The notes under the pieces were generated by a model, which saw only the letters and a program-made list of their open reading frames with translations, was not told the DNA's origin and made no database searches. This document shows, piece by piece, positions 1,294 through 20,374 of a stretch of DNA of 64,000 nt (positions within the stretch are counted from its first letter, which is position 1; every line of letters starts with the position of its first letter). The translations under genes were made by a program, and so were the position numbers. This stretch comes from a virus: IMG/VR virus record IMGVR_UViG_3300042691_037870, positions 1 to 64,000 of that record; one strand, written 5' to 3'.

Positions 1294-2247
1294 TTATTTA
1301 ATAAAGTCTTTTCTAGATGCTACTTTGTTTTTATTCTTTTCATAAAACGAACCTAACATACCAATTTGAGCAACACTAAATGTATGTTCTCCACCATTAA
1401 CTTTATCTTTAATAAAAATCATTGGTTGAATTTCGAATTGTTTATTAGGTGTGAATTTTGCATTTAGTATAGTTTTGGAAGAACTTAAAATTTCTTCAAT
1501 ATCTTCAGATGTGAAAGGTATACTGAAGTGATAAATTAACCCGGTTTGAGAATCCAATGATGGTTTATCATTAGCTTCATTTATCATATCTTTGGATTCT
1601 TTAATACCGAAGATATCTTTAACTTTATCCAATTCAGTTTTTTCACCTGATAAAGTTAAAACCCCTTTCATATTTCCAATAATCTTAAACTTAATTTGAT
1701 CTAACTCTTTTTGAACTTTTCTGTCATTCCATATATTATATGCATGACCTGATATTTCTAAAGTGTCTTCATTAAGATTATCTTCAGATTCTATAAGAGG
1801 ATATCCTTCATCACTCCAACCAGCTATAAATGATACATCTCCTTTTGCTGAACCTTCTAAAAATTTAACCTTTGTATTTTGATTTTTACCTAACTCAATA
1901 ACTTCAAACTTACCATATCTTGGATGCTTATAAACGTGGCCTACTTTAAATTTTGTTATAGAACTTTCATTAGTATCAGACTCATTTACAAATTGCTCAA
2001 TAAACTTTTCTCTGCGTTTCTTATCTGCACCCATACCTGTTCCTGCAATCATATCACGAACCTCGTATTTCTCTTTTGAGTCTTTGTGTTGTTTAACATA
2101 GTCGGCAAGTTTCTTACCATCTATATTATTATCATCTATAAAGTTTTGTGCGGATGTTTGACCACTACCAGTGATTTGGTGGATGTAGACAGCCTCCATT
2201 GAAAGTGCTTCATTTATGAAGCTGTCAAATTCTTTAATATGTTTCAT
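1294..2247 (-). CDS. Tagged cargo protein with multiple internal cleavage-like motifs
   Basis: This 317-residue protein begins with the tag MKHIKEFDSFINE, predicted to be cut before Ala14. The motif recurs inside: VNE89/S90, LNE160/D161 and INE224/A225. Cutting at all sites would release four pieces of roughly 75, 70, 65 and 90 residues. The second piece contains a compact beta-rich stretch (KVGHVYKHPRYGKFEVIEL), and the last piece ends with a predicted alpha/beta region. I recognise no enzyme family in it. The stop and the next start (DUF3008-like gene) are two bases apart. The start is preceded by AAAATAAGATG and no Shine-Dalgarno sequence, as is typical in this window. Confidence 0.85.
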   Translation of the reverse strand: MKHIKEFDSFINEALSMEAVYIHQITGSGQTSAQNFIDDNNIDGKKLADYVKQHKDSKEKYEVRDMIAGTGMGADKKRREKFIEQFVNESDTNESSITKFKVGHVYKHPRYGKFEVIELGKNQNTKVKFLEGSAKGDVSFIAGWSDEGYPLIESEDNLNEDTLEISGHAYNIWNDRKVQKELDQIKFKIIGNMKGVLTLSGEKTELDKVKDIFGIKESKDMINEANDKPSLDSQTGLIYHFSIPFTSEDIEEILSSSKTILNAKFTPNKQFEIQPMIFIKDKVNGGEHTFSVAQIGMLGSFYEKNKNKVASRKDFIK

Positions 2248-8135: not shown

Positions 8136-8666
8136 TTACCAAGGTTTATCAGAAGATAAACCGAGAGCTTTTCCGAACAAGCTCGGACCGTAACAAGCCC
8201 AGAACTTAGGAGTTAGTGGATCCATTGATTTTTTAAGATCACATTGTTGTCTTGCCCAAAAACTTGCAGCTGCTCCGGGATCGTCGTTTTTAATACTTAA
8301 TCCTGTAGCATCTCCCCACTCAATTCTTGTTCCAATGATGTTACCTTCATCATCTTTTTTACCGCTGTTATGATATACATAAAACTTTTTATCTCCACCA
8401 CGTTTAGGTGTATCAAGTTCAATTTTACGACCATCAGAATCTACAGCATCTTTACCTACTTCAAGATTTGCCGCCATCCATGCTGCTTTATCTTTAAGTA
8501 TGATATTACCTTCATCCCAGTATTTTTTTGTTTCTTCAAAAAGTTCTTTATAAGCTTGACTGCCTATACGATAAACAGAATTGGTAATGTCTAACCCATT
8601 TTCCATGTGGTAACGAAAACCTTCTGATACTACAAAATCGTTAAAATCTTTAATGTATTTCATCAT
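8136..8666 (-). CDS. Tagged cargo protein with Trp/Cys-rich C-terminus
   Basis: The frame is open up to 8702, but the best start is one of two consecutive ATGs at 8666/8663 in an ATGATGA overlap with the stop of the PAP2 gene. That gives the tag MKYIKDFNDFVVSE, cut before Gly. The mature body of about 160 residues has a helical middle (GSQAYKELFEETKKYWDEG), a beta stretch around KKFYVYHN, and a C-terminus rich in aromatic and Cys residues (SFWARQQCDLKKSM, KFWACYGPSLFGKALGL). No family is assigned. The overlap with the phosphatase gene indicates coupled translation. Confidence 0.75.
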   Translation of the reverse strand: MMKYIKDFNDFVVSEGFRYHMENGLDITNSVYRIGSQAYKELFEETKKYWDEGNIILKDKAAWMAANLEVGKDAVDSDGRKIELDTPKRGGDKKFYVYHNSGKKDDEGNIIGTRIEWGDATGLSIKNDDPGAAASFWARQQCDLKKSMDPLTPKFWACYGPSLFGKALGLSSDKPW

Positions 8667-9814
8667 TCTTGTATTAGATTGTTCTTTATTATAATATCGC
8701 AAATTTCTCGTGAAACTTGTGTATCTGATGGGTAATGTATTCCTGTCAGTTCTCGGCTATTTGCAATCTTTTTACCAAGTTCTAATAGCTTATCACCTAC
8801 TTGTGGATATTTACGAGTATAGTACTCACTCGTCATAAAACCAAGAAGAGCATGACCACTTGGATATGAAGCACTCATTGCATCTGTACGAATTAGCGGA
8901 TAGATAGGATAGTTATAGTATTTTGCTAATTGATAAGGTCTTGGACGATTTATGATATCTTTAAGAAAATGTAATATACCTTCAGATTGACTATCAATTC
9001 TAAAGAAATCACCCATAGTAATTTCTACATCGTGTTCTTTAAGAATATCAATAAACATTTGTGCAATGTTACTTGGGTCATCCACAAAACGTGCAAAGGT
9101 GATTTCTTCAGCTGTTGCTTTAGTAGTTTTATCAACAAGAATTTGTAAATCACTTTGAGTAATTTCACTGTTATTTAGCGGTGCTTCTTGTTTAAATTTT
9201 TCAGTTAATCCGTTTTCAATAAACCAATTCTTAATATAGTCATCAGGTTTTTGCATGATTTCTATATACTCAAGTGGCGGATTCCCATAGTTAACAGAAT
9301 TAATCTCTACTTGTGTATCAAGAATACCCATTTGTGCTTCATACAATTCTGTTTTCTTTTTCTTTCCTTTATCAGGGCCTCCTTCATGAGGAATCATACC
9401 TTGAGCAATCAGAGAAGTTTTTATACCAAACGGAATTTCTTTACCCTCTTCATATTCTTTTTTATACTTAAGAAGAGTTTCCTTTTTATATGGAGATTCT
9501 TTCTCATCAAGAAGATCTTCTCTACCTAATTGACGATAAACCTCTTTACGAGTTTTTTCCATTTTTTCAGCATACTCAGGATCGTCATTTCGGTTAAACA
9601 CAATTTGCTGAGTTAAACTACCGCTAATTTTCTTTACATCCTTTTTACGAGTTTTGATTAACCAAGCTGCTAAGTCTTTAATACTTAAATCACGAAAACG
9701 GCCTTCTGCATCAGGTGCATCAGAATCTTTCCATTCAGGTGCACCAGCAGGTTTTTTCTTTTCATTTAACCACTCGTTAAAGGATTTTATATTATTCATC
9801 TCCGTAAAGTTCAT
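8663..9814 (-). CDS. Tagged PAP2/class A acid phosphatase-like protein
   Basis: This 383-residue protein starts MNFTEMNNIKSFNEWLNE, a tag variant with the cut before Lys19; a second ATG at residue 6 would give a more usual length. Residues 39-97 form a basic helical domain (DLAAWLIKTRKKD, ISGSLTQQIVFNR). The C-terminal 120 residues carry all three PAP2/vanadium-haloperoxidase motifs: Lys285-x6-Arg292-Pro, Pro318-Ser-Gly-His321, and Ser343-Arg344-x5-His350-x3-Asp354. The enzyme should hydrolyse phosphate monoesters or lipid/nucleotide phosphates through a phospho-histidine. No signal peptide or membrane helices are seen, unlike most bacterial relatives. It overlaps both neighbours by a few bases. 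Confidence 0.85.
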   Translation of the reverse strand: MNFTEMNNIKSFNEWLNEKKKPAGAPEWKDSDAPDAEGRFRDLSIKDLAAWLIKTRKKDVKKISGSLTQQIVFNRNDDPEYAEKMEKTRKEVYRQLGREDLLDEKESPYKKETLLKYKKEYEEGKEIPFGIKTSLIAQGMIPHEGGPDKGKKKKTELYEAQMGILDTQVEINSVNYGNPPLEYIEIMQKPDDYIKNWFIENGLTEKFKQEAPLNNSEITQSDLQILVDKTTKATAEEITFARFVDDPSNIAQMFIDILKEHDVEITMGDFFRIDSQSEGILHFLKDIINRPRPYQLAKYYNYPIYPLIRTDAMSASYPSGHALLGFMTSEYYTRKYPQVGDKLLELGKKIANSRELTGIHYPSDTQVSREICDIIIKNNLIQE

Positions 9815-10352
9815 GGTATTTTTTTGTATGTGTTGAGGGTTTTAAGTTCTTTTTGCCTTTTGTATCACCAGGCATTTCTTTATAAGCATCAGGATCATCA
9901 TCGTCCATTGCTGCTTGCTTTGCCATTTGTGCCTTTTTCTTTGCCTCAGTACTTTTACTGATACCTACAAAATATTCACGAGCTTCATTTTTTGCTTTAG
10001 GATCATGACCACCATCACGCACTTCTTTTGCAAGATCAGCGTCAGCTTTGCCCCAAGTACCTTTTCCTTTAGTTAAAAATGAGTTTACACGAGCATAACC
10101 CCACTGCTCTTGCCCTGCTCCAGGACGATGACCAGATTTCCAAGCAGCCATACCTCGTCTCATAACAGCACGAATAATTCCAATAGGAACCCCTGTTTCA
10201 TCTGCCTTTTTCTTTAATCCTTTCTCAATGGCATCATTATCAATTGGCGATCTATCGGTTGATTTCTTATCGTCATCATCAGCTTCATTTAAAAAGATTT
10301 CTTCAAGCTGATTCTCAAATACGAATTGTTCGAACGTAGTTATATGCTTCAT
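9792..10352 (-). CDS. Tagged DUF5824-like protein
   Basis: A 186-residue protein with a long tag region, MKHITTFEQFVFENQLEE then IFLNEADDDD, so cleavage could follow Glu18 or Glu23. The central part contains RRGMAAWKSGHRPGAGQEQW and ARVNSFLTKGKGTWGKADADL, which I recognise as the phage domain DUF5824 (function unknown). The C-terminus is charged and low-complexity and ends KPSTHTKKYHELYGDE. The protein is small, basic and probably nucleic-acid or capsid-core associated, but this is inference. The stop lies inside the start of the PAP2 gene (23-base overlap). Confidence 0.75.
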   Translation of the reverse strand: MKHITTFEQFVFENQLEEIFLNEADDDDKKSTDRSPIDNDAIEKGLKKKADETGVPIGIIRAVMRRGMAAWKSGHRPGAGQEQWGYARVNSFLTKGKGTWGKADADLAKEVRDGGHDPKAKNEAREYFVGISKSTEAKKKAQMAKQAAMDDDDPDAYKEMPGDTKGKKNLKPSTHTKKYHELYGDE

Positions 10353-12079: not shown

Positions 12080-12643
12080 TTAAAAGTACGTCTGTTCAAA
12101 ATATAATACTTCAAATTTATTAGTTGGGTTAATTAATTCAAGAGCGTTTAAGTAATCTGAATACTCGGATACTTCTCCTACTTGAATATCAACATATTTT
12201 TGAATAAAGTTAAACGTAGCAGGGTCCCTATCAAGAACTACTTTTTGATCATCTGAGTATTTCATTAACAGTCCATATTCTAATTCATAAGCACGGTTAA
12301 TAATTTCAACAAGACCGCTGAAAGTTAAAGATGTTGGAACACTCGGTATTACCGGAATTAAATTCCATTGAGTTAAGTAATCTTGAATTCCTTGTGCGTG
12401 ACTAAGTTCTCCTTCAGCTTCTGCATTAAAAAAGTCAGCAGCTTTTTTATAATTTGCATTTTTACACCAGTTAGCAGCATTACGATAAAAATAATAAGCA
12501 GTATACTCATCACCTAACCTTTCGTTAAGCATTTTTTCAATATCTTCTTCAAGCGGCTTTGGTTTGATAGGATTGATATTAAAGTTCATTGCTTCATTAA
12601 TAGCTTGAACTTTGTTTTTTCTAAATGTCTTAAATTCTTCCAT
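12080..12643 (-). CDS. Ferritin-like diiron protein, weakly tagged
   Basis: This 187-residue protein is a four-helix ferritin: Glu46 in LGDEYTAYYFYRNAANW, Glu79-x-x-His82 in EGELSHAQGI, Glu113/Glu120 in the third helix and Glu157/Glu160 in the fourth match the ferroxidase ligands of bacterial ferritin (FtnA E17, E50, H53, E94, E127). It should oxidise Fe(II) and store or detoxify iron. The first 30 residues are an extra segment, MEEFKTFRKN followed by KVQAINE and Ala18, compatible with a diverged cargo tag. It overlaps its upstream tagged neighbour by one base. A phage ferritin is unusual, and one possibly packed in the capsid more so. Confidence 0.8.
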   Translation of the reverse strand: MEEFKTFRKNKVQAINEAMNFNINPIKPKPLEEDIEKMLNERLGDEYTAYYFYRNAANWCKNANYKKAADFFNAEAEGELSHAQGIQDYLTQWNLIPVIPSVPTSLTFSGLVEIINRAYELEYGLLMKYSDDQKVVLDRDPATFNFIQKYVDIQVGEVSEYSDYLNALELINPTNKFEVLYFEQTYF

Positions 12644-13854: not shown

Positions 13855-14436
13855 TTATATGTATGATTTTAATTCTTCATAAAAAGGCCAAACACTTTTT
13901 GGCACAAGTTTCTGAAAATCTTTTTCGGTTCCTGTTTTTAATGTTTCACGAACTTTTGTACCACTTGGACCATCTTCATCACGATTCATTACGCTCTCAA
14001 GTGAAAACTCATTAACCTTAACATCACTCTTAGGTGATACTAAATAATCTACTTGACGCTGATAATCTTTAAGACGATCAGCACCACAGCCCATAGCAAC
14101 AGGATCATAACCAGCCTTCATAACAACTTTTGCCATTTGAGGAATCACTGTTTTTAAGTGATCCGGGAAAATTATCCAATCAGCAAGAATGTTACGATAT
14201 TCAGCAGCGACAGCTTTACCGATTCTTTGTAACAGCTCAATAGGAAATGGAGAATCCGGCCCTGCTTTTACAATTTGAATTGGTATAACTCTCTTATTTC
14301 CAAATTCTTTAGAAGTTCTCTTAAATGCCTCAATGTGTCCATTGTGCACAGGCATAAAGCGGCCTGGAAAGATTGCTACTTTTTCTCCGCTGTTTACTTC
14401 AGAAATGAATTCCTCAAATAGTTTAATATGCTTCAT
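13855..14436 (-). CDS. Tagged NMN-adenylyltransferase-like nucleotidylyltransferase
   Basis: This 193-residue protein carries the tag MKHIKLFEEFISE, cut before Val14. The body opens at once with the HIGH-family signature GRFMPVHNGH (25-34) and ends with PSGTKVRETL (157-166), which corresponds to the (I)SST-x-x-R motif of NMN and pantetheine-phosphate adenylyltransferases. MGCGADRLKDYQRQVDYL in the middle corresponds to the substrate region of NadM/NadR-type enzymes. The likely reaction is transfer of AMP from ATP to a mononucleotide such as NMN, forming a dinucleotide. If packaged, it would supply NAD synthesis at injection. CDP-type substrates remain possible. It is one base from the next gene. 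Confidence 0.8.
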   Translation of the reverse strand: MKHIKLFEEFISEVNSGEKVAIFPGRFMPVHNGHIEAFKRTSKEFGNKRVIPIQIVKAGPDSPFPIELLQRIGKAVAAEYRNILADWIIFPDHLKTVIPQMAKVVMKAGYDPVAMGCGADRLKDYQRQVDYLVSPKSDVKVNEFSLESVMNRDEDGPSGTKVRETLKTGTEKDFQKLVPKSVWPFYEELKSYI

Positions 14437-14437
14437 C

Positions 14438-14683
14438 TTAAAATGTAAGTGTAAATCCTTTTGATGATGGCGTAATATGTTTTAAGCCGCCTTTACATAA
14501 GATCATAAGTTGATCGCCGGTTAATTTTTTCACAGCAATATCAATGATAACAGATTCTGTTGTTAAAGATTTTGCTGTCATTGCAATATCAGCGTCTTTT
14601 AGGTCAGCACTTTTAAGTGTAACCCCAATAGCGCCCAATTCAGCTATTTTGTTTTCGTTAATATGTTCTGAAAACGTTTTCAT
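14438..14683 (-). CDS. Small protein with tag-like start
   Basis: An 81-residue protein starting MKTFSEHINE followed by Asn11, closer to the T4 internal-protein tag (MKTYQEF) than to the local consensus. The body is a small alpha/beta unit (GAIGVTLKSADLKDADIAMT, ESVIIDIAVKKLTGDQLMILC). No family is recognised. The start overlaps the stop of the preceding tagged gene by one base. Confidence 0.7.
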   Translation of the reverse strand: MKTFSEHINENKIAELGAIGVTLKSADLKDADIAMTAKSLTTESVIIDIAVKKLTGDQLMILCKGGLKHITPSSKGFTLTF

Positions 14684-15138
14684 TAGAATGTAGAATCCAT
14701 GATTACATTAGCAACCATATCAATTAATTGTTTTTGTGATTTCTTTGTATCTGGATGTAAAAAGTTTTGTTTATCTAACATGTCAACAATAACAGTAGCA
14801 AGAACTTTAGCTCCAGATGGTTTACCGTGACCAGCAACTTGAACTGATGCTTCATTAACTTCTTCAAATTCATAAATGGTCCCCATCACTTCTTCTTTGC
14901 TGTTAAATCGTTTTACTGCCTTTTTAACTTTATCCAAGTTTCTGGTAACGGTATCAAGTACTCCAGGATCAATATCTCTACCTGCAGATGTGTTTTGATA
15001 AAAGTTCATTAAATTTTTTGCAACAAGATATAACTCATTACTGATTACATCTTTAGGAAGTCTATAAAAAACTCCTTCGTTAACTTCAGCAACTTTTAAG
15101 CTTTCATTAAATTGTTCGAATGATGGCAATTTGCTCAT
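14683..15138 (-). CDS. Tagged cargo protein with three cleavage-like motifs
   Basis: A 151-residue protein starting MSKLPSFEQFNES, with a further VNE motif before Gly22 (KVAEVNEGVF) and another in the middle, EEVNEASVQVAGHG at about 92-96. Cutting would give a helical piece of about 73 residues (VISNELYLVAKNLMNFYQN) and a C-terminal piece of about 55 residues (AKVLATVIVDMLDKQ). Function is unknown. The ATG follows a short A/T-rich leader with CATATATACATG. Confidence 0.75.
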   Translation of the reverse strand: MSKLPSFEQFNESLKVAEVNEGVFYRLPKDVISNELYLVAKNLMNFYQNTSAGRDIDPGVLDTVTRNLDKVKKAVKRFNSKEEVMGTIYEFEEVNEASVQVAGHGKPSGAKVLATVIVDMLDKQNFLHPDTKKSQKQLIDMVANVIMDSTF

Positions 15139-15156
15139 GTATATATGTTTTATTTT

Positions 15157-15453
15157 TTAAGATTCTTGTGCTATCATTGCGTCAATAACATCAGAAGATA
15201 TCCAACCTTTTGCTTTAGCAAATTGTTTTGCTAAAGCTATGACTTTCTTTTCACCAGCAGGTTTAACTTCATTGCTTGGACCTTCTTCGTTATTATCGTT
15301 CCATTCTTCAACACAAGCTTCAACTTCGTGTTGAATTTGTAAATCATTCGGATTTTTAATTTTACCTTTTTCTCCGCTATTATGATAGCCTTCCCAGTAC
15401 TTAGCGTCAAACCCTTCATTTACGAACTGCTCAAATGTAGGTATATGTTTCAT
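15157..15453 (-). CDS. Tagged acidic cargo protein
   Basis: The frame extends upstream to 15483, but the ATG at 15453 gives the exact tag MKHIPTFEQFVNE, cut before Gly14, so that start is preferred. The mature part of about 85 residues is acidic (VEACVEEWNDNNEEG) and ends with a small helical domain (KKVIALAKQFAKAKGWISSD, DVIDAMIAQES). It could be the C-terminal half of a DNA-mimic-like or helical binding protein; no family is recognised. The upstream gene's stop at 15458 lies five bases before the chosen start. Confidence 0.75.
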   Translation of the reverse strand: MKHIPTFEQFVNEGFDAKYWEGYHNSGEKGKIKNPNDLQIQHEVEACVEEWNDNNEEGPSNEVKPAGEKKVIALAKQFAKAKGWISSDVIDAMIAQES

Positions 15454-15457
15454 TTCT

Positions 15458-15973
15458 TTATTTCTTTTTATATTCATCAGCATTTTTCTTATCCGCAGAA
15501 GAAAGTGCTTTATATAGTTTATCTATATATTCAGCATGAGTTCTTCCCGATGTATAAGCACGATTATCATCAGCATACATATAAGTTTTATCACTCATAT
15601 CATAATGTCTTTGCCATTTTTGATATGGTGTGTAAATCTTGTCTTCAAGATAATTTAAGATATCTTGCTTAGATGTTTTTTTCTTATTTAAGTACCATTC
15701 CCAAGATCCACGAAAACTACCTAACTTATACGCATGAATTGCATCTCCGGTTTTAAGCTGAATTTCAAATTTAATACCTTGCTTATCATCGCTTTGATCA
15801 ACTGTAGATTTTATGTACTTTTCAGATTCACGCCAATCAACAGGGATTAAATGTTTAACGCTTATTAAAACATCATCTTTAAGGTCCTGAGGAGTTCCCC
15901 AAGACCCTTTGCGATAATCAGCGTATGTTTGGTATTCATTTAAGAATTCATTAAATGATGGAAGTGTTTTCAT
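15458..15973 (-). CDS. Tagged cargo protein, unknown function
   Basis: A 171-residue protein with tag MKTLPSFNEFLNE, cut before Tyr14. The body has a beta-rich part (GIKFEIQLKTGDAIHAYKLG) and a charged helical C-terminus with several Tyr residues (TPYQKWQRHYDMSDKTYMY). RGSWEWYLNKKKTSKQDIL suggests a nucleic-acid or phosphate-binding surface, but this is weak. Upstream (15974-16039) is an A/T-rich gap that may hold a promoter; I could not settle on one. Confidence 0.75.
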   Translation of the reverse strand: MKTLPSFNEFLNEYQTYADYRKGSWGTPQDLKDDVLISVKHLIPVDWRESEKYIKSTVDQSDDKQGIKFEIQLKTGDAIHAYKLGSFRGSWEWYLNKKKTSKQDILNYLEDKIYTPYQKWQRHYDMSDKTYMYADDNRAYTSGRTHAEYIDKLYKALSSADKKNADEYKKK

Positions 15974-17705: not shown

Positions 17706-18992
17706 TTATTTTTTATAAGCAAGTATGCTTCTTATTTGATGTAATGGCGCAAAAATGCCTGTGTACTTATAAAGTTTTCCATTATATAAGAAAGTAATTC
17801 CTTCAGTAGGTACGATTGCTTCTAATCCACCTGCTGCAGCAACACGAGATAATTCATGTTCTAATTTAGAAACATCTGCTTCATCACCATTTGTTCTAAT
17901 TGTTGAAATTGTTTTATCAATATCTTTTCTCATAGATTCTGCAGCCGCGGTTGGGTTTGCTGATAAGAAAGCTGAAAGATTCTTCATCATTTCAGTACCT
18001 ACCTCTAAGAATAAATTTTCAAGAGGCGCATAAACTCGACGTTTAAGATCTTTTCCTTTGTTCTTTTCCAGGTTAATAAACCAATCAGCAGCATCACCAA
18101 GATCTTTCTTAATTTGTGGAACACTGTAAGATTTGTCAATGTCAGCAATTCTACGGGCAAGACCGTCAATACTTATTTCTGGAAGATTAACTCTTGCGGA
18201 ATTTGCTTCTGCCATTAAAATTCTTTTACCCATACCTAAGGCATAGTCACCTACAGTAGAACTTAAAGTACTACCGCTGTCTTTCATTACATCAGCAAGT
18301 TTTTTCTGATAATATGATAATCGGGTTTTGGTATTTGGGAAAGGTTTAGAAGCAATATCTTGTGGACCACGTACATAGAAAGTTTCCTGAGACGCTGCAT
18401 TTGCATCAGATATTAATTTACCAATATCTCTTCCTGCCTGCTTGTCTTCGCCTATAGGGTTGCCTGCAGGGTCCATTTCTACTATTCCATGAAATACCAA
18501 AATATTTTGACCGTATGGGACAGTGTTTTGTGTAATAGGAGTGATTACTTCAACAGAAGCAAACTTTTTACCCTCTTCAAAAAATCTTTTCTTATCAGCG
18601 TCAGAAAGTTTACTGATAGATGATGTAAGATCTTTCATTGCTGAGTTATAAGCTTTTTCAATATCTCCACGCCCTGCAAATAAAGAAGCAATGCCGGCAG
18701 AATCTAAAGCATTCGCGCCGGCATCTTTTAGATGTGATTTGTTTCTTGCGGCAATAAGTTTACCATTTTTCCAAGAAATCATAATATTTTGACCGTCTGT
18801 CTTTTCTTGTACGAAATTCTCTGGCCCAAAGGCACCATTTACAGTTGTGGTTATCATTTTCTGCAAATCACCCATAGTCAAACCAAAATCATCAAACGGG
18901 TGTGAAAGATGACCATAGGCACCTCCTTCATTAATGACACCTTCATTTAACGATTCATTTAGTATGAATTGATTGTAGCTTAGTAAACTCAT
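17706..18992 (-). CDS. Tagged polynucleotide-ligase-like adenylyltransferase
   Basis: This 428-residue protein starts MSLLSYNQFILNE, then SLNEG and VINEG, three cleavage-like motifs in 24 residues. It then shows superfamily motif I VQEKTDGQN with Lys64 as the likely AMP acceptor, AARNKSH (Arg83), and FASVEVITP (Glu148) and ILVFHGIVEMD, resembling motifs III and IIIa of RNA/DNA ligases. Homologues of this layout occur in other T4-like phages, usually annotated as hypothetical or ligase-like. The C-terminal 200 residues are helical. It would seal or adenylate nucleic-acid ends using ATP or NAD. It is the second ligase-like protein in the cluster and the only one with a tag. Confidence 0.75.
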   Translation of the reverse strand: MSLLSYNQFILNESLNEGVINEGGAYGHLSHPFDDFGLTMGDLQKMITTTVNGAFGPENFVQEKTDGQNIMISWKNGKLIAARNKSHLKDAGANALDSAGIASLFAGRGDIEKAYNSAMKDLTSSISKLSDADKKRFFEEGKKFASVEVITPITQNTVPYGQNILVFHGIVEMDPAGNPIGEDKQAGRDIGKLISDANAASQETFYVRGPQDIASKPFPNTKTRLSYYQKKLADVMKDSGSTLSSTVGDYALGMGKRILMAEANSARVNLPEISIDGLARRIADIDKSYSVPQIKKDLGDAADWFINLEKNKGKDLKRRVYAPLENLFLEVGTEMMKNLSAFLSANPTAAAESMRKDIDKTISTIRTNGDEADVSKLEHELSRVAAAGGLEAIVPTEGITFLYNGKLYKYTGIFAPLHQIRSILAYKK

Positions 18993-18994
18993 GA

Positions 18995-20374
18995 TTATTT
19001 AACGATTGATCTTCCTTCAATCCATTTTTTTGCGTTTAAGTCCCACCAAAGTGAATCCCAAACAAAATCAGTTCCGTTAGAGCCTCCAGATGGGTGTTCA
19101 TACCAAAGTTTAGGGTTAAACCAGATTGATTTTCCATCACCAGTTACATTTCCACCCCAGAACCCAATTTCTACTTTAGTAAAGATTGTTTTAACCAAAG
19201 TTCTACCTAATTCATTAATAATATCATTAGAAGTTATCTTAATAACGCCTCTTTCAATTCCAGCGTTTAATGCTGGTTTAAAACCAAGTTTTTTCTTGAT
19301 AAGTTCTTCTAATTGAGGTAATGCCTTTTTTACTTCATCAAGATAAGGTGTTACATCAGCAGCTTCATTAATGTCTACATTTTCATTAGTTTCTTTTTCT
19401 TGATAACATTCACAAGGATCGCATTTGCACATTGGGCATTCTTCACCTTCATTAGTAGAAGATTCACCAAGAGAACTTGTAAGCATTCCTATAGCTGCGC
19501 CGTAATCCCCATCACATTTCTTTAAGATTCCATTAATCGTATCGTTGGCTTTGTCTTTATCAAAATCATCTGGGTGTGCTTTCTTTAAAACTGCCATTGC
19601 ATATTCTTTAAAGTCAGCTTCTGATTTTACATCTTCTTCTTTAATAACTGCTTCATTAACATAAGATTCTAATACAGGAGTATCATCTTTATCCCATTCA
19701 CCTTTTCTAACAAAACCGTGAACTGTGAAATTTGCTTGTGTTATTCCGGTTGCCTTTACTAACTTATCAATAGCAGCGTTTTCAACACTAACATTGCTAG
19801 TTCCTTTAACATATTTAAACTTATATGACTTTTTGTTTTTAAAATCTAGAACAATAAATCCATCATAAAATTTAGTCATGTCAGCTTCATTTACTTCAGA
19901 TTCTGAAACATTTTCAATTTCAAAAGATTTTGCCAAGTCTTCAATCTTAGAAGCAAATTTAGCATCTGTTCTAATTAAGATACTGTTATGAGCGCTGTTG
20001 ATATCAACTTTAATTGACTTATCGATTGTTGAATGAATTTGAGACTTAAATTCTTCAAGTTCAGATTTGCGATTTGTAGTAGCATCATAAATTAACTGAA
20101 CTTCTTTGCCTTCATTAACTTCCTCAGATTCTTTAACGCCATGTTTTTCAACATCAGCTTGTCCAGCTTTAGTTGCTCCTTTACCACTTTCCCAGTCTTT
20201 TGAAATTTCACTAAAGAATTCAGATTTTTTTGCATCATCAAGATCAGCCGGCGATTTTACACCAAACTTGCTTAACTTTGCAGTAAAGTAGTCTTGATAG
20301 GATTTTTGTAATTCTGACTTTGCAGCGGTTTCCGCTTCATGAATAGCCGTAATTGATTGTGAAAACTTTTTCAT
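18995..20374 (-). CDS. Polyprotein-like cargo protein with Cys-rich linker
   Basis: This 459-residue protein has a weak tag (MKKFSQSITAIHE, Ala14) but the densest set of internal cleavage-like motifs in the window: VNE88/G89, VNE163/A164, VNE241/A242, LGE304/S305 and INE337/A338. The pieces would be 62-122 residues long with different compositions: a charged helical piece, an alpha/beta piece, a beta-rich piece (FKNKKSYKFKYVKG), a helical domain (KAHPDDFDKDKANDTINGIL), a linker with five Cys (CPMCKCDPCEC, 313-323) that could bind zinc, and a C-terminal beta domain (TKVEIGFWGGNVTGDGKSIW). No enzyme is recognised. It begins 19 bases after the preceding tagged gene. Confidence 0.8.
   Translation of the reverse strand: MKKFSQSITAIHEAETAAKSELQKSYQDYFTAKLSKFGVKSPADLDDAKKSEFFSEISKDWESGKGATKAGQADVEKHGVKESEEVNEGKEVQLIYDATTNRKSELEEFKSQIHSTIDKSIKVDINSAHNSILIRTDAKFASKIEDLAKSFEIENVSESEVNEADMTKFYDGFIVLDFKNKKSYKFKYVKGTSNVSVENAAIDKLVKATGITQANFTVHGFVRKGEWDKDDTPVLESYVNEAVIKEEDVKSEADFKEYAMAVLKKAHPDDFDKDKANDTINGILKKCDGDYGAAIGMLTSSLGESSTNEGEECPMCKCDPCECYQEKETNENVDINEAADVTPYLDEVKKALPQLEELIKKKLGFKPALNAGIERGVIKITSNDIINELGRTLVKTIFTKVEIGFWGGNVTGDGKSIWFNPKLWYEHPSGGSNGTDFVWDSLWWDLNAKKWIEGRSIVK

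Follow-up and report, generated by a model that had tools for sequence, protein, structure and literature searches.

The first 64,000 nucleotides of IMG/VR virus record IMGVR_UViG_3300042691_037870 (the window; the whole record has 126,447 bases) contain, at positions 18995-20374 on the minus strand, an ATG-started open reading frame (ORF) of 459 amino acids. This gene probably encodes a packaged polyprotein that is cut by a prohead protease into several small proteins, a reading to which we give a probability of about 0.77. In related proteins the module borders match the protease motifs, the modules alternate between polyproteins and single genes, and the linkers between them are predicted to be unstructured. 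The original prediction of a packaged polyprotein is thus supported both by motif-bound borders in homologues and by the position of the sites in predicted linkers.

All five internal motifs that had been proposed are present in the protein (VNE88↓G, VNE163↓A, VNE241↓A, LGE304↓S and INE337↓A, the arrow marking the predicted cut), and IHE13↓A ends a leader. The protein has nine matches to [ILV]xE↓[AGS] against 1.86 expected (P = 1e-4, 20,000 shuffles of the same protein). Four matches to [ILV]NE↓[AGS] were found against 0.10 expected, a number reached by 0 of 20,000 shuffles, and the remaining window proteins together have nine in 17,733 amino acids (counted after residue 40). The nine T4-consensus matches mostly form pairs, 5-6 residues apart, within one linker form, ES-x(1-2)-NE↓(A/G). 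These pairs are VKE82/VNE88, VSE158/VNE163, VLE236/VNE241, and LGE304 with STNE309. In the relatives, the module at residues 242-309 ends at the second site of the pair (S-V-V-T-E↓A/G), and STNE309↓G is therefore favoured. Judging from these homologues LGE304, a genuine motif match, is probably not the main fourth site, and it was rejected as the fourth cut. The five-cysteine fragment foreseen earlier corresponds to residues 310-337 (28 amino acids, CPMCKCDPCEC). At the N-terminus, a short leader closes at an [ILV]xE site (MKKFSQSITAIHE↓A), and five relatives have the form MKKFxxWxxxxRE↓A, or shift to MNE↓A where the first E is Q.

Whether the domain borders of homologues coincide with the motifs was examined in 28 non-redundant polyproteins. 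Homology breakpoints, each requiring support from three subjects, lay at most 6 residues from a T4-consensus site in 168 of 302 cases. When the sites were circularly shifted, only 56.7±7.1 breakpoints were near a site, with a maximum of 83 in 5,000 shifts. A first version of this three-subject test gave 153 of 279. A simple test on the ends of all high-scoring segment pairs, which was discarded, showed twofold enrichment only, as alignment ends are noisy. Borders and motifs do coincide: breakpoints cluster at the motifs, and module 3 (residues 164-241) is border-exact.

Module 3 occurs from cut site to cut site in the polyproteins of loci L002 (81% identity) and L003/L037 (69%), and nearly so in the L054 polyprotein (76%) and in a 261-amino-acid gene with a capsid-targeting sequence (CTS), L042:3224-4009 of genome G006 (65%). 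Its neighbours differ among these relatives. More than 25 polyproteins contain module 4, with [VLT]NE or VTE↓A before it and either SVVTE↓ or the protein's C-terminus behind it. Counterparts of module 1 are stand-alone genes of 110-142 amino acids in L005-L008 (60-76% identity), and this module also matches phrog_28651. Module 6 is related to the stand-alone CTS genes L041:4851-5384, L046:13079-13600 and L028:2272-2799 (27-33% identity, 32 invariant columns).

The relatives were collected by scans, in which the window protein gave nine loci, each matching other parts of it, and the L002 protein gave 79. Those at the same locus are chains of 409-1029 amino acids, the richest of which have about 12 internal sites; the syntenic gene encodes 825 amino acids in L002 and more than 1,000 in L054 and L059. 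These long proteins consist of conserved blocks in strings, with ES-V-N/T-E↓A/G between blocks. Cutting the 28 polyproteins at their sites gave 229 segments with a median of 77 amino acids, many of which recur in differing order, as in a mosaic. The largest segment cluster, M0 (88 segments), was a chain-linked artefact and was not used in naming modules. In L004-L008, the position between the helicase and a conserved gene with a KxDG motif is instead taken by 2-9 small genes, mostly leader-bearing, and in L005, L007 and L008 a counterpart of the window protein's N-terminal module stands alone there. One and the same locus slot can thus be occupied by a polyprotein or, instead, by several CTS genes in a row. 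In L003/L037 (G002) the polyprotein is split inside one module into ORFs of 308 and 757 amino acids, by a frameshift or an assembly error.

The same exchange is visible in other genes of the window. The body of the stand-alone gene at 15157-15483 is 55-69% identical to the last module of several polyproteins, starting at the cut site in both. In the two-module gene at 14683-15138, the FYRLPKDV module lies inside polyproteins L002, L054, L059 and L065, and the VQVAG module is a separate CTS gene of 66-70 amino acids in G003, G004 and G005. Residues 1-90 of the 317-amino-acid protein correspond to L020:7451-7885, and residues 215-315 to L025:3952-4272 and L038:2188-2508 (82-87%). Similarly, residues 1-119 of the 186-amino-acid protein correspond to L041:10543-10887, and residues 122-185 to L041:12395-12628.

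The linkers are also alike in their DNA. Where a polyprotein has several ESxxNE linkers, the synonymous codons chosen for S, V, L, I and T were the same in 68% of comparisons, which overlap; codon usage would predict 34%. The repetition thus extends to the DNA, which suggests that the linker may be a site of module recombination.

The full-length protein was folded with AlphaFold from a nine-row alignment, a smaller set chosen after alignments mixing fragments of all modules proved misaligned. The predicted template modelling score (pTM) was 0.24. The predicted local distance difference test (pLDDT) fell below 50 at residues 1-12, 74-89, 158-164, 229-242 and 303-338, and in parts of the C-terminal region, where there was no alignment depth. 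Sites 88, 163, 241, 309 and 337 all lie within such stretches, with folded blocks between them. The original prediction would have failed had the motifs been placed inside folded cores; in the model, all five internal sites fall in low-confidence linkers. This placement is support, not proof, as thin alignments can also lower pLDDT. Module 2 is predicted to fold as beta-alpha-beta-beta-alpha-beta. Module 6 folded alone gave a pLDDT of 84.4 and a pTM of 0.78, with the first helix beginning at residue 5 counted from the cut. It had no match in a PDB fold search and one weak, uncharacterised match in BFVD (A0A248SK72, E 1.2e-3, TM-score 0.64).

A protease of the required type and a gp23-like capsid protein are encoded by those relatives that are complete enough. 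Among the 15 related records searched, Peptidase_S77 (PF03420, the T4 gp21 type) was found in 11 and the capsid protein in 10. LINE↓A/S stands at the start of six of seven capsid proteins, and R[VI]NE↓A/S follows the protease domain in all six protease-scaffold fusions examined. When 177 CTS leader sites (L/I/V-N-E↓A/G/S) were compared with 174 internal cuts (V/I/L-N/T-E↓A/G), the two sets agreed at P3-P1'; both were picked by patterns that require Glu, so that only the other positions are informative. Fusions of this type, seen in L011, L149-L153 and L155, are ORFs of 560-780 amino acids in which the prohead protease is joined to a long coiled-coil, scaffold-like tail, with R[VI]NE↓A/S between. 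The protease-scaffold fusion at L095:4029-6176 contains long acidic repeats and a 30-amino-acid module (NAFGDAVRKAK..EFEFEGKTYKVEE) that is also present in polyproteins. A second, short Peptidase_S77-like ORF (132 amino acids) was seen in L157 (G014:36115-36369) and at the same place in G013 and G015, far from the main protease.

These features suggest the following course. The N-terminal leader would direct the chain to the inside of the prohead core, in the manner of the capsid-targeting sequences of T4 internal proteins. A T4-type prohead protease would then cut after Glu in the ES-x(1-2)-NE↓(A/G) linkers, at about E13, E88, E163, E241, E309 and E337, and free six small mature proteins of 75, 75, 78, 68, 28 and 122 amino acids. 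The mature modules would stay in the head and later enter the cell with the DNA; by analogy with the T4 internal proteins, they may act as injected effectors. One leader for fused modules would allow several cargos to be loaded in equal number from one gene. Modules could be swapped, fused or split at the linkers, because these are near-repeats in both DNA and protein.

Several prohead-protease sites in one head protein are also known from the T4 core proteins gp22, gp67 and gp68, whose fragments mostly leave the head, and from inner-body propeptides of phiKZ, which carry redundant sites (PMC9026906). In SPN3US, cleavage at 13 of the 14 mapped sites takes off an N-terminal propeptide; the gp53 propeptide is cut several times (PMC10052503). 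The window protein, whose fragments are also small, might accordingly be a core protein that is shredded, its peptides leaving the head and its modules having no function after assembly. We consider this unlikely. In those proteins the extra cuts break down a scaffold or a propeptide and leave at most one mature protein, whereas here the sites lie between, not within, the folded modules of the AlphaFold model, the modules are conserved and also present as separate CTS genes, and the relatives have a separate, protease-fused candidate for the coiled-coil scaffold.

About equally improbable is an internal multidomain protein from which the leader alone is removed, with the linkers common merely as recombination seams. 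Such seams would explain, without any cleavage, why the linker DNA is repeated beyond what codon usage predicts. However, the linkers hold the protease consensus (Glu at P1, a small residue at P1') that also closes leader peptides, and for every separate CTS gene the predicted cut falls at this same consensus. That the protein is an unpackaged, cytoplasmic multidomain protein with NE-A/G as a compositional accident is very improbable: the atypical leader of some relatives would fit, but the motifs exceed shuffled expectation, the gene lies among about 30 leader-bearing genes, and its modules are exchanged with such genes.

Several points weigh against a packaged, cleaved polyprotein. We infer cleavage, packaging, injection and function rather than observe them. 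The breakpoints come from related proteins, which makes them non-independent, and 45% are not near any motif. No homologue of modules 2 and 5 was found, and the leader of some polyproteins in relatives (MAQVNKISSFKSF...) is not a textbook CTS. The window's 126 kb record, which is a fragment, has no detected prohead protease or capsid gene. No module could be assigned a function by Pfam searches, which gave nothing above the cut-off for the window protein and nothing at E 0.01 for ten related polyproteins. The best sub-threshold match of the window protein, RNase_H (E 4e-4), was rejected, its stretch 96-208 also spanning the E163 border, and a sub-threshold PDDEXK hint was set aside.

The coordinates of the polyprotein, its parts and the other genes are given in the table.

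Table. Predicted polyprotein, its leader and modules, and other genes of the window.
Feature	Position	Strand	Basis or remark
Predicted packaged polyprotein	18995..20374	minus	459-aa ORF; motif counts; locus slot common with relatives' 409-1029 aa polyproteins
Leader, residues 1-13, MKKFSQSITAIHE↓, capsid-targeting-like	20336..20374	minus	pattern kept in five relatives
Module 1, residues 14-88, helical, closes EEVNE↓G	20111..20335	minus	stand-alone genes; phrog_28651; low-confidence linker 74-89
Module 2, residues 89-163, closes SEVNE↓A	19886..20110	minus	folded block in the AlphaFold model, flanked by low-confidence stretches 74-89 and 158-164
Module 3, residues 164-241, closes SYVNE↓A	19652..19885	minus	border-exact in other polyproteins
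Module 4, residues 242-309 (DFKEYA), helical, closes LGESSTNE↓G	19448..19651	minus	border-exact in >25 polyproteins
Module 5, residues 310-337, 28-aa five-Cys peptide, closes DINE↓A	19364..19447	minus	sequence; pLDDT <50
Module 6, residues 338-459, C-terminal alpha+beta domain	18998..19363	minus	related CTS genes; AlphaFold alone
Stand-alone leader-bearing gene	15157..15483	minus	body is last module of L002/L003/L054/L059 polyproteins
Two-module gene (FYRLPKDV module, EVNE↓, VQVAG module)	14683..15138	minus	modules found apart in relatives
317-aa CTS gene	1294..2247	minus	each end corresponds to a separate CTS gene in G001, and the C-terminal end to one in G002 as well
186-aa CTS gene	9792..10352	minus	two separate CTS genes in G006
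Ferritin-like protein	12080-12643		in leader-gene block
Nucleotidyltransferase-like protein	13855-14436		in leader-gene block
PAP2 phosphatase-like protein	8663-9814		in leader-gene block

The neighbourhood is of T4 type, with a UvsW-like helicase, a primase and a gp32-like single-strand binding protein. The 459-amino-acid gene stands at the end of a block (654-20732) of about 30 small consecutive genes, many of which have leaders of the MKHIxxFExFxNE type, the form of T4 capsid-targeting sequences. This block is predicted to be a very large set of packaged cargo. The gene at 17706-18992, kept at the same place in the relatives, encodes a leader-bearing protein of 428 amino acids (FILNESLNEGVINE↓GGAYGH) with a KTDGQN (KxDG) motif like that of nucleic-acid ligases; it had no match in Pfam or PDB. 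No relative of the L002 polyprotein was found among isolated phages or in bacterial and archaeal genomes. Isolates (Erwinia, Pseudomonas, Dickeya and Vibrio phages) share only the N-terminal helical domain, inside unrelated proteins. The helical N-terminal domain of the window protein, a small mobile domain, also occurs in L134:6117-8927 of Tenacibaculum phage pT24, a gene annotated as DNA ligase 1, and in a protein of Pseudomonas phage Illi-2 encoded between portal and protease.

The nearest known system is that of the T4 internal proteins (IPI, IPII, IPIII and Alt), which likewise have a short leader closing with L/I-x-E, a T4-type protease and small cargo placed in the head before the DNA (PMC9026906). 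The single-module CTS genes of the window resemble them. Each T4 internal protein yields one mature product (the Alt C-terminus is also trimmed), whereas the window chain has six modules and, beyond the leader, five further predicted sites at their borders. Polyvalent proteins such as DdrB and DarA of phage P1 (Iyer et al. 2017), the closest in concept, are also alike in carrying many cargo domains on one delivered chain, with domain shuffling and predicted proteolytic release (PMC5512222). They have a built-in metallopeptidase and large enzymatic domains, whereas the window protein has no recognisable peptidase or other Pfam domain and its cleavage would be in trans, with the prohead protease acting at explicit sites.

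Head proteases of tailed phages serve in leader trimming and scaffold clearance. In the open-access literature, no report was found of a packaged chain cut by the prohead protease into several retained proteins. We incline to the broader view that, in a large group of uncultured T4-like phages, the prohead protease frees several different small proteins from one packaged polyprotein. On this view, polyproteins and single CTS genes draw on a common store of modules, which pass from one form to the other by way of a short repeated linker that serves both for cleavage and for recombination, as a plug-in system for injected cargo. If true, this enzyme would have a new role, the production of several mature cargos from one packaged chain, which is nearer to what RNA viruses do with their polyproteins. 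A reading rule would follow for the unknown genes of these phages, which could be split at NE↓A/G linkers with each piece taken as a protein, and the linkers could mark the points at which injected cargo is swapped between phages.
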